Source: a virus. From it: DNA of 24,454 nucleotides. The notes beneath the pieces are model-generated. The model did no database searches, was not told where the DNA came from, and worked only from the letters and a program-made list of their open reading frames with translations. A program made the position numbers and the translations under genes. Positions 9,322 through 20,458 of the stretch are shown in pieces. Location of the stretch: the IMG/VR virus record IMGVR_UViG_3300031741_000020, positions 1 to 24,454 of that record. One strand, given 5' to 3'. The number at the start of each line of letters is the position of its first letter. Within the stretch, counting starts at the first letter, position 1.

Positions 9322-9561
9322 TTATTCTCCGAGCTCGGCTTTCTTAATTGCTCCGTATTGAGCCTTTGTCATAAGTCTGGAACCTTCCCGCTTTGCTTCG
9401 AACTCAAGATTAGCTGTAGGGACTGTTACTTCTACTAATGGCTCTTCACCTTCGTTAACGTCCACCTGGATGGCTGGATAGCCATAAATGGTTGAACCAG
9501 GTGTATAAATGAGTTTGGCAATGTACATCTTGGTGGTAGCTTCTGGTTTTACTTCTGACAT
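9322..9561 (-). CDS. Small protein downstream of the major capsid gene, unknown
   Basis: This encodes 79 residues, acidic to neutral and probably beta-rich, with a C-terminal segment carrying LMTKAQYGAIKKAEL. AGGA lies eight bases before the ATG. Small proteins in this slot are sometimes head decoration or fibre-like proteins, but I do not recognise the family. The gene is separated from the capsid gene by a strong hairpin (9585-9602) and ends three bases before the adaptor gene. Confidence 0.7.
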   Translation of the reverse strand: MSEVKPEATTKMYIAKLIYTPGSTIYGYPAIQVDVNEGEEPLVEVTVPTANLEFEAKREGSRLMTKAQYGAIKKAELGE

Positions 9562-9619: not shown

Positions 9620-10552
9620 TTATGCTTTAGCGCCAGTAAGGCCTGTAAGGCGTGCAATACAACGACGATTAAAGATGGCAAAGTTCATGTAAGCCTTGAT
9701 ACGATAGATGTTCTCGTCCTTGGTTTCCATGGCTCCTACATCCTCAAAGGTAATACCAGCTGGAGTGGCTTGTGGGTAGATCATAGCAGCACCAACTTTC
9801 TTGGTACCGTCATCCCACACGCCAAAATAGGCTGAAGAAAGAACGCCGCCTGTAAGGGCTGCACCAGCTGCAGTTTCGGTTACAGACAGCCAATCGTTCT
9901 GGAAAATTGGGATACCGTTATATACGTCCATCTGCACAGTTCTATCACCGACTTTAACCTCGGCCATTGGAACTCCGCCAAGGGTTCGAAGCATGTCACG
10001 ATATGCACGAAGATCGCGACCTGTCATCATAATCCAGTCAACAACACCGTCTTTCGATTTAACCTTGTCAATAGCTGCATCAAGCATGGCGAAAGTCATA
10101 GCTCCACCAGTTACGTACTGCTCACTATCCACGAGGGAGTGAAGAGAGTTCATGGCTGGTGCAGTACCACTACCAGTAGCCATTCCTTCTTGGAGATTAC
10201 GGCCAACCTGCTTGGACTTAGATGCAACTTCCATTGCAACAACATCATTAATATCAGAGCCAGACATTGCGATCTGGAGCTTATTAATCTCAGCGTCACC
10301 AATACATGTGGTAGGCTCAAAAGGTACGGCAGTTACAGCGGATGGCGCCTTTGCCGTAATAGTTCCGCCGATAGCCAGGAACTGAGCATCGCCCATTGTG
10401 GTCTCACGATTTACAGTAATGCCTGAACCTGCGAAGCCGATCCAAGGGATAAAGCCCCAAATAGGGTTGGTAGTGAAAATGTCTTCTACGATACCAGCGA
10501 TAAGCTGATCTCTGGTTCGTTTTTTAAACTCGGGAAGGGTCATTGTAGTCAT
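9620..10552 (-). CDS. Major capsid protein (HK97 fold)
   Basis: The protein has 310 residues. I chose the ATG at 10552 because a perfect AAGGAGG lies eight bases upstream. The longer frame from 10648 runs back through the leader hairpins. The sequence has a helical N-terminus (LPEFKKRTRDQLIAGIVEDIF), a GDAQFLAIGGTITAK strand region and the FVPF-like VPFEPTT. A long Ala-rich helix (VVAMEVASKSKQVGRNLQEGM) follows, then an axial-domain-like GGVLSSAYFGVWDDGT and a C-terminal RIKAYMNFAIFNRR. It follows the scaffold gene and has its own promoter and structured leader. There is no long N-terminal delta domain, in line with a separate scaffold. Confidence 0.88.
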   Translation of the reverse strand: MTTMTLPEFKKRTRDQLIAGIVEDIFTTNPIWGFIPWIGFAGSGITVNRETTMGDAQFLAIGGTITAKAPSAVTAVPFEPTTCIGDAEINKLQIAMSGSDINDVVAMEVASKSKQVGRNLQEGMATGSGTAPAMNSLHSLVDSEQYVTGGAMTFAMLDAAIDKVKSKDGVVDWIMMTGRDLRAYRDMLRTLGGVPMAEVKVGDRTVQMDVYNGIPIFQNDWLSVTETAAGAALTGGVLSSAYFGVWDDGTKKVGAAMIYPQATPAGITFEDVGAMETKDENIYRIKAYMNFAIFNRRCIARLTGLTGAKA

Positions 10553-10574
10553 TGTTGTGTCCTCCTTGGACAAT

Positions 10575-10601
10575 AAAAAAGGGGCATACCTCACGTATGC
10601 C
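10575..10601 (-). terminator. Intrinsic terminator / attenuator inside the capsid leader
   Basis: The minus strand reads GGCATAC-GTGAG-GTATGCC followed by CC and six T. A second upstream copy of the 5' arm, GGGGCATAC (10618-10626), can pair over nine bases with the same 3' arm (10581-10589). It also overlaps the small GAAC hairpin at 10624-10635. The hairpin lies between the promoter and the capsid start, so it can only act as an attenuator or must be read through. Confidence 0.65.
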
Positions 10602-10652
10602 GTTATCTGGCTGTGAAGTATGCCCCTGTTCAGGGAAACGAAGGACACCTGT

Positions 10653-10670
10653 TCAGATGCACCGTCTCAT
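10653..10670 (-). CDS. Possible five-residue leader peptide (MRRCI)
   Basis: An ATG at 10670-10668 is preceded by AAGGAG with an eight-base spacer and reads Met-Arg-Arg-Cys-Ile-stop. Its SD overlaps the 3' arm of the first leader stem, and its stop lies in the loop of the second CTGAACAG repeat. A ribosome on it would disrupt these stems. Whether it is translated is unknown. Confidence 0.4.
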   Translation of the reverse strand: MRRCI

Positions 10671-10726
10671 AAGTTATGCTCCTTACCTTTTCTGTTCAGT
10701 CCGGGTAAGGCTTAATTATTATATAA

Positions 10727-10755
10727 ATTATACTCTAAACCTTCTTAAAAGTCAA
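10727..10755 (-). promoter_or_regulatory. Strong sigma70 promoter for the capsid/tail genes
   Basis: On the minus strand TTGACT (10755-10750) is separated by 17 bases from a perfect TATAAT (10732-10727). The predicted start is near 10720. It lies in the 273-base gap between scaffold and capsid genes and would boost capsid and tail expression independently of the terminase promoter. Confidence 0.85.
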
Positions 10756-10825: not shown

Positions 10826-11530
10826 TTAACTCACGCCTCTTTCTTTAAGGCCTGCACTTATATTCTGCATGGATGAATTACCACTTGCATCACCTGTTCC
10901 ACTACCAGCTGAGTGCCCGTCCCCGCCTGCGCCGTCGGACGCCTTCATTATTGAGTCTTTCGCTGGATATGCATCAATAATAGATGTCATAGCCTCGTCA
11001 AAGCCTGCAAGCTCTCCTGGCTTAGTCTTTGAGTAGATGGGGTTCCCTGCAGCGTCATTTGCCGACCCATCTGGGTTGAAGTGTTTACCAAATGTCGCTT
11101 GTGCGATGTCCGGTGGCAGCACCGTTCCCTTGATGACCTTACTAGTGGCAAACTGTGAACCTGTAGTAGCCTCAAAAAGTTTCGTATTAAGACCGGTCTT
11201 CTCTGTCTCCCAGGTCGTTTCCTTATCTGCCCACGTTTTGTTAATAAGATCACGTTGTGCCTCCAAGTCAGCTTTGCCTTTGTCACTCATACCACCAACA
11301 TCCTCTAGGGCCTTACGGGCTGCTGTGGCATCCAGATCACCAAAAGCCTCCAGTGCAGTGGCTGCATCTGAGAGCTTTTTTCTACGGTCATTGCTCTCTG
11401 CCGTTATAGTAGCTATCTTAGCCTGAGCACCTATGGCATCAATTGTAATCTCGCTCTCACCATCAATTACTACAGGGTGTCCGCCTTTCATTTCAATAGC
11501 TTTTCCATCTTCAGTCAGTTTGTACTTCAT
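10826..11530 (-). CDS. Capsid scaffolding protein
   Basis: The protein has 234 residues. The N-terminus (MKYKLTEDGKAIEMKGGHPVVIDG) and the long charged helical middle (residues about 35-130, rich in Ala, Glu, Lys, Asp) fit the DUF6651-like scaffold proteins of siphophages. So does the Gly/Ser-rich tail with a conserved PxxIAQATFGKHF region. It lies directly upstream of the capsid gene, and the capsid protein lacks a built-in scaffold domain. The ATG overlaps the stop of a 50-residue gene (ATGA), with AGGAG about seven bases upstream. Confidence 0.8.
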   Translation of the reverse strand: MKYKLTEDGKAIEMKGGHPVVIDGESEITIDAIGAQAKIATITAESNDRRKKLSDAATALEAFGDLDATAARKALEDVGGMSDKGKADLEAQRDLINKTWADKETTWETEKTGLNTKLFEATTGSQFATSKVIKGTVLPPDIAQATFGKHFNPDGSANDAAGNPIYSKTKPGELAGFDEAMTSIIDAYPAKDSIMKASDGAGGDGHSAGSGTGDASGNSSMQNISAGLKERGVS

Positions 11531-19831: not shown

Positions 19832-20458
19832 ATGAAAATGAAAGAAATGAAAGAAATCGCAACCCCTATTATTGAGTCTGGTTTTGAATCCGGCGCAGAT
19901 CACGATGACATCAAAGGCGCATTGGTCGCTGCAAAAATTCCTTTTGGTAAGATAAATTCCCTTTTCAAGACCATCGCAATTGAACTCGAGTTGATGCGAG
20001 ATCCTGCTGATATCAAATCCGAGATCGATGCTCAGGTCACTGAATCCGAATGGGATGCCATTGACACTTGGGACCAGATCACCTCTGTAGTGGAAGAGAT
20101 CATGGATGAAGTTGAAGGTTCCACTGAGGCGCAGGTCCTCTCGGTTATTCGTGCATACTTTAAAGATCAGGGTCTCACTCTTCCAAAGAAGACTGCCAAG
20201 AAGGCAGGTGCTCGTTCTACCGGTGGAAAGATTCAGGCAGCTGTTTTTGGTCTGTTCGCATCTACCCAGAAACCCACCAAGCAAGAACTTTATGATGCCG
20301 TGGAACCCTGTATCTCTGGTAAGATCGAGACTAATACCATCTTTAATGTGAAACATTATTTCATCCTCTGTTATGCCCTTTGTAATAACATGACCATGGA
20401 AGATGCTCATGCTGAGACCAAAGATATGGTTTTCGGTGCAGCTGACTCTGCAGAATAA
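19832..20458 (+). CDS. Early protein, 208 aa, unknown
   Basis: The GGAGAT ribosome site and a dedicated promoter suggest strong early expression, and codon use looks smoother than in its neighbours. The protein is acidic and mostly helical, beginning MKMKEMKEIATPIIESG. A basic Lys/Ala/Thr-rich linker near residues 119-132 (PKKTAKKAGARSTGGK) separates two helical parts. The linker resembles flexible nucleic-acid-binding tails. No known domain is recognised, and no membrane segment or signal peptide is seen. First clear gene of the rightward block; it may be a host-takeover or DNA-associated protein, but this is a guess. Confidence 0.8.
   Translation: MKMKEMKEIATPIIESGFESGADHDDIKGALVAAKIPFGKINSLFKTIAIELELMRDPADIKSEIDAQVTESEWDAIDTWDQITSVVEEIMDEVEGSTEAQVLSVIRAYFKDQGLTLPKKTAKKAGARSTGGKIQAAVFGLFASTQKPTKQELYDAVEPCISGKIETNTIFNVKHYFILCYALCNNMTMEDAHAETKDMVFGAADSAE

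Follow-up and report, generated by a model that had tools for sequence, protein, structure and literature searches.

The window, a linear IMG/VR virus record of 24,454 bases, encodes on its minus strand a major capsid protein that is ~35–41% identical to those of the Mesyanzhinovviridae and their relatives (YuA, Xp15, PaMx11). The gene is preceded by a leader of ~145 nt from promoter to terminator on the same strand, and upstream of this leader lies a scaffolding-like gene (Table 1). The 79-aa gene just 3′ of the capsid gene (9322–9561, minus strand) has no homolog in the related contigs compared. The capsid frame stays open through the terminator up to a GTG at 10648 (10552–10648, minus strand), a mechanical ORF with no sign of use.

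A sequence-only reading of this DNA had described the leader as a set of mutually exclusive RNA elements, and all the elements it named are present on the minus strand, beginning with the strong promoter it placed before the capsid gene. A GC-rich hairpin with a U-tract stands between promoter and gene, the arrangement of an intrinsic terminator or attenuator. As claimed, the 3′ arm of this hairpin (10594–10581) has two alternative partners, an outer one at 10626–10613 and an inner one. The three copies of CTGAACAG (10699–10692, 10656–10649 and 10633–10626, minus strand), two of which had been described as GAAC hairpins, are likewise present, but in the first copy the loop is closed by just 2 bp, as the tip of hairpin 1. 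The window holds five copies of this 8-mer versus 0.8 expected by shuffling, and only 6 in 5000 shuffled leaders contained any 8-mer three times. The predicted fold of the leader was better than those of 200/200 shuffles (z = −3.8 and −4.5).

Two further elements exist in the window but did not extend to the relatives described below. The stem of hairpin 1 (CCUUACC/GGUAAGG) covers the SD-like AAGGAG of a five-codon ORF, as had been proposed, although neither the ORF nor its SD is kept elsewhere. The nine-base segment GUGUCCUUC is complementary to the capsid SD region (p = 0.02–0.035 in the window) and is absent in L096, L107 and L182; the capsid SDs of L096 and L107 are identical to that of the window, yet the segment is missing. 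It was therefore rejected as a general feature, being private to the window. The small hairpin presenting the SD is identical in L096 and L107, and missing in L098, L182 and L187.

Table 1. Elements of the capsid leader and the adjoining genes, in window coordinates
Feature	Positions	Strand	Remarks
Major capsid protein gene	9620..10552	minus	310 aa; PHROG 212 (major head protein family)
Small hairpin GUCC-AAGGA-GGAC	10559..10571	minus	Capsid SD in loop; from sequence
Intrinsic terminator GGGGCAUACUUCAC...GUGAGGUAUGCCCC-UUUUUU	10575..10626	minus	GC-rich hairpin and U-tract
Inner alternative partner GGCAUAC of terminator 3′ arm	10595..10601	minus	
Hairpin 3, UCCCU-GAAC-AGGGG	10623..10636	minus	10626–10623 common to terminator 5′ arm
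Pyrimidine linker CGUUUC	10635..10640	minus	Adjoins hairpin 3 on 5′ side; conserved in alignments
Hairpin 2	10635..10668	minus	Outer stem GAGACGG/UCGUUUC; GAAC-loop tip 10660–10645
Nine-base segment GUGUCCUUC	10640..10648	minus	Complementary to capsid SD region, this phage only
Five-codon ORF MRRCI, ATGAGACGGTGCATCTGA	10653..10670	minus	Judged non-functional as leader peptide
Linker CAUAACUUAUGAG, hairpin 1 to hairpin 2	10666..10678	minus	Conserved; holds ATG of leader ORF
Hairpin 1	10681..10710	minus	Outer stem variable, 7 bp; spacers of 4 nt; tip CU-GAAC-AG
Sigma70-type promoter TTGACT-17-TATAAT	10727..10755	minus	11/12 consensus match
Gene upstream of capsid leader	10826..11530	minus	DUF6651 / head scaffolding-like

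Related leaders and their paired stems

With the window capsid protein as a single query, searches of IMG/VR and GTDB yielded no relatives; alignment-based capsid queries recovered relatives that single-sequence queries had missed. The pattern TATGAG..CTGAAYAG..CTGAAYAG, built from the first relatives and searched without use of the protein, returned the same contigs and two more. Scanning IMG/VR for the triple CTGAACAG pattern gave mostly unrelated contigs; three matches (L045, L046, L067) were later shown by protein searches to encode the capsid gene, and 63 other triple-pattern contigs gave no significant match to R2, a covariance model of the three hairpins. Two hairpin-3 pattern searches added no new members. 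The collection, small and all metagenomic, comprises eight distinct leaders with GAAY loops (the window, L096, L107, L098, L182, L180, L187 and L215; capsid identity of the seven relatives ~58–79%) and two leaders with other loops (L184 and L097).

The eight GAAY leaders have a common order: promoter, hairpin 1, linker CAUAA-N-UUAUGAG, hairpin 2, linker CGYUYC, hairpin 3, terminator, SD and capsid gene. The UAUGAG portion of linker CAUAACUUAUGAG is conserved and the ORF starting there is not. All 10 terminator-bearing leaders have a promoter matching 9–11 of 12 consensus positions, 194–220 nt upstream of the capsid start. Each hairpin of the GAAY leaders has the loop GAAC or GAAU closed by a U-A pair, replaced by C-G in hairpin 2 of L180 and hairpin 1 of L215. 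Since the motif pair occurs once per record and always in front of the capsid gene, the leader is, as far as these fragments show, a gene-specific control rather than a general antitermination site. The sequence-only reading had named relatives that keep promoter and gene but lose repeats or stems as the outcome that would speak against it. This outcome did not occur: promoter, loops, stems and terminator persist.

Two side observations concern single contigs. L215 (JAOZVI010000082.1) is a phage contig binned in a Flavobacteriaceae MAG despite its sigma70-like promoter and strong SD, and is probably mis-binned. L185 carries two CCU-GAAU-AGG hairpins before its capsid gene (2890–2950), with neither a terminator nor a good promoter match, so the loops there need some role other than antitermination.

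R2 scored 65–99 bits for the eight GAAY leaders and their near-identical copies. Beyond these, a scan of 0.42 Mb of relatives found only L184 (18 bits, E 0.38), exactly in its capsid leader, and a scan of 0.84 Mb of contigs chosen for CTGAAYAG patterns returned only the L180 and L181 contigs; neither set held a match outside the GAAY leaders with E < 0.3. In the model alignment, which is biased towards its own structure, 88.7% of the cells were paired versus 72.4% in shuffles that ignore the common descent of the leaders (0/500 reached this value), and 16 of 24 pairs had two-sided changes. Sliding the partner strand along lowered the pairing to 41–59%. Part of the pair counts comes from hand or model-fitted alignments: by hand, the outer stem of hairpin 1 was paired in 56/56 cells, with two-sided changes in 7/7 columns, and hairpin 2 in 36/36 cells, with such changes in 4/4. 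Against the same kind of shuffles, the terminator was paired in 96.6% of the cells over 10 leaders (0/500 shuffles as high), and hairpin 3, which has just 4–5 bp and little variation, in 94.6% (4/500). The fixed loops on varying stems, and the CTGAATAG or CCGAACGG that relatives carry in place of CTGAACAG, disfavor a role of this repeat as a DNA operator.

Mutual exclusion of hairpin 3 and the terminator

Hairpin 3 and the terminator have 3–4 nt in common, which serve as the 3′ arm of the former and open the 5′ arm of the latter. Written as hairpin arm, shared strand and terminator arm, the triplet reads CCC-GGG-CCC in the window and L096, CGC-GCG-CGC in L107, L180, L187 and L215, UGC-GCG-CGC in L182, and CCGU-ACGG-CCGU in L184. 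An exchange of GGG for GCG, or the reverse, in the shared strand is accompanied by matching changes in its two partners, the 5′ arm of hairpin 3 and the 3′ arm of the terminator. The two partners never pair with each other; they change together because both pair with the shared strand. In the capsid tree, the window and L096 (both GGG) have L215 (GCG) as their sister, and L098 (GGG) sits among GCG leaders, which indicates that the change arose more than once. Both pairings have thus been kept through compensatory changes, and their mutual exclusion appears to be under selection. The exclusive pairings and repeated recognition loops of an RNA switch, as originally proposed for the window alone, are in this way supported by the relatives.

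In computed folds, forcing hairpin 3 cost 9.5–10.0 kcal/mol in 8/8 GAAY leaders and shifted the base of the terminator 3–5 nt off the U-tract. Seven of these eight retain the inner partner of the terminator 3′ arm over 6–7 bp (GGCAUAC, GGCGCC or GGCAUC), whereas L184 (AGAW loops) and L097 (AGGW loops) lack it; it is possibly a holding partner for the freed 3′ arm.

A candidate attenuator and competing explanations

Taken at the level of sequence, the leaders combine conservation, covariation, a strand shared by hairpin 3 and the terminator, and exclusivity to capsid genes. With moderate confidence, we read them as protein-dependent transcription attenuators of the capsid gene, in which a factor that binds the loops would turn capsid synthesis on. 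Unless its action were conditional, it would make no sense to have a strong terminator follow a dedicated promoter just ahead of the capsid SD. The conserved strand sharing suggests that the loop hairpins set this condition, and loops that are the same within a leader and vary between lineages suggest a loop-binding factor, most likely a protein. Transcription would start at the dedicated strong promoter, and the RNA would fold into three hairpins in a row with the same GAAY loop. If the factor is lacking, the terminator, ~10 kcal/mol more stable, would take the 3′ arm of hairpin 3, and transcription would stop before the capsid gene. The factor, most likely a protein of the phage that is produced or becomes active at a late stage of infection, would bind the loops co-transcriptionally and lock hairpin 3. 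The terminator base next to the U-tract could then not form, and the polymerase would read into the capsid gene. If this holds, an RNA-binding factor, which may be a phage protein, sets capsid output at a step later than transcription initiation. The literature searched contained no case of regulated attenuation immediately ahead of the capsid gene of a tailed phage.

The own promoter, compact fold (z −4.5), strong terminator and repeated loops would also suit a stand-alone small RNA of ~145 nt whose loops act in trans, with read-through into the capsid gene being incidental. We consider this unlikely: right ahead of the late gene in greatest demand, a constitutive terminator would halt transcripts arriving from upstream too, and the compensated strand sharing of hairpin 3 and the terminator would be left unexplained. 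In sister clades, moreover, one and the same leader holds repeated-loop hairpins and, opposed to them, structures that sequester the SD.

A phage protein bound to the loops could instead modify the polymerase, as in nut/boxB- or put-like processive antitermination, with no local block of the terminator. Lambda boxB, bound by N/NusA, is CCCU-GAARA-AGGG with a pentaloop. Hairpin 3 (CCCU-GAAC-AGGG) resembles it as a short hairpin in a phage leader with similar closing pairs and a loop starting with GAA; the leader offers several copies of the site, three loop hairpins in all, and the pyrimidine linker CGYUYC precedes hairpin 3. However, the loop is a tetraloop, CGYUYC fits boxA poorly and no clear boxA is found, and the conserved overlap of hairpin 3 with the terminator is not required by such a mechanism. 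We therefore regard this explanation as improbable.

The sequence-only reading had suggested that a protein such as the capsid protein could bind the loops and give feedback on head synthesis; in the negative form of this idea, loops occupied by free capsid protein would shut its production down. The position before the capsid gene agrees with this idea, and repeated sites could sense concentration. However, binding that stabilizes hairpin 3 disrupts the terminator and should favor read-through, i.e., activation; the nine-base anti-SD is not conserved; and in the sister clade with RGN triloops (see below) the loop hairpin and the SD-blocking fold also look like alternatives. Negative feedback thus seems a poor prospect for this leader. 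Ribosome-controlled attenuation by the five-codon peptide is the weakest explanation and is very improbable: the window ORF has its SD inside hairpin 1 and its stop inside hairpin 2, and similar peptides (MSRGT, MSKGT and MSKAT) occur among the relatives, but other leaders encode MRWVTE, ATG followed by TGA (L187), 22 codons (L180), 11 codons (L184) or a GTG only (L215), so that frame, length and SD vary, conserved regulatory codons are lacking, and the proposed leader peptide was rejected.

Exchanged loops, sister clades and known systems

L184 (capsid 64% identical) and L097 (54%) also have three hairpins, with loops AGAA, AGAA and AGAU in the former and AGGU, AGGA and AGGU in the latter, and hairpin 3 again overlaps the terminator. 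The wider group provided 64 non-redundant capsid leaders, in which identical-loop hairpins were in excess (15/64 at p < 0.05 versus 3/63 control segments; Fisher p = 0.002), although most of the 64 lack the pattern at such strictness. Long complements to the SD were in excess as well (10/64 at p ≤ 0.05; binomial p = 0.001).

In one sister clade (L102, L105, L108, L190–L195), the leaders carry C-RGN-G triloop hairpins (several of them assigned by visual inspection), the last of which overlaps another stem, and the SD is paired by an anti-SD such as GCCUU in nearly all predicted folds. Examples with RGN triloops are L105 (2880–3000), L193 (110–224) and other leaders of the L102/L189–L195 group, where GCCUU is predicted to sequester the capsid SD by pairing with AAGGU. 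In these folds, the sister clade seems to have the switch in a form that acts on translation. Within the last 60 nt before the capsid start, L124, L140, L134 and L005 (Xp15) also have a hairpin with a GGU, GGC or GGG loop and a 5′ arm complementary to the capsid SD. For L124 and L140, the anti-SD consists of the hairpin loop together with this 5′ arm (CUCCGGUG with CACCGGAG or CACUGGAG); the L124 pairing is CUCCGGUG with CACCGGAG.

From the loop-swap and SD-pairing patterns, a wider reading may be offered tentatively, though we hold it to be rather doubtful. The capsid leader of the Mesyanzhinovviridae and their uncultured relatives might be a modular sensor RNA of 2–3 hairpins, all with the loop typical of the lineage, that times or tunes capsid synthesis through interchangeable outputs. 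A phage protein co-evolving with the loop, perhaps an assembly protein, would be its ligand. These outputs would be an intrinsic terminator in the window clade and SD sequestration in the sister clades. Loops that are swapped between lineages on a kept architecture predict a protein–RNA pair whose partners could be traced through their co-variation; orthogonal hairpin–protein switches would then be available as a family.

Several known systems share parts of this design. The BglG/LicT RAT is a single bulged hairpin that is stabilized by protein and overlaps a terminator at its 5′ arm; the capsid leader has the same overlap, but with three simple loop hairpins of other sequence. The closest likeness is to ANTAR/EutV dual-hairpin antitermination. 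Like the capsid leader, ANTAR targets have tandem small hairpins with the same loop upstream of an intrinsic terminator, the terminator being in the alternative fold (PMC3369931). The targets of EutV, NasR and AmiR have hexanucleotide loops in which position 1 is A and position 4 is G, and both hairpins are needed for binding (PMC3369931). In the capsid leader, strand sharing and covariation likewise make a loop hairpin exclusive with the terminator. Read as a hexaloop, however, its UGAAYA has U at position 1 and A at position 4, and the leader also differs in having tetraloops (GAAY), three hairpins, outer stems that are both large and variable, and a phage capsid gene downstream. No ANTAR match was found among the ten window proteins scanned against Pfam (a 24-kb fragment, so that a host protein is possible), and Rfam gave no family above the gathering threshold for the leader, only chance-level matches. 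By its loop sequence, and with no Rfam match, the leader does not appear to be a member of the ANTAR class.

An orphan protein of 208 aa, encoded on the plus strand at 19832–20458 and divergent from the late genes, has homologs (59% and 30% identical) in two other GAAY-clade contigs. Its model is all-helical (pLDDT 76). No family was assigned, and it was not proposed as the loop binder, since a fold search with the model gave no match at E ≤ 0.001.

A published description of capsid-leader switches in the Mesyanzhinovviridae and their relatives was not found in a search that covered mainly openly accessible literature. As in the window clade, several leaders of YuA, Xp15, PaMx11 and their relatives have two hairpins with one shared loop (GUGAU, GGG or GGU). 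In those examined, no terminator stands between the hairpins and the capsid gene, and some have an anti-SD overlapping a hairpin instead. The leaders of L008 (YuA) and L010 (CN1) carry, at about −90 to −48, two GUGAU-pentaloop hairpins with different stems, GGA-GUGAU-UCC and CGG-GUGAU-CCG.
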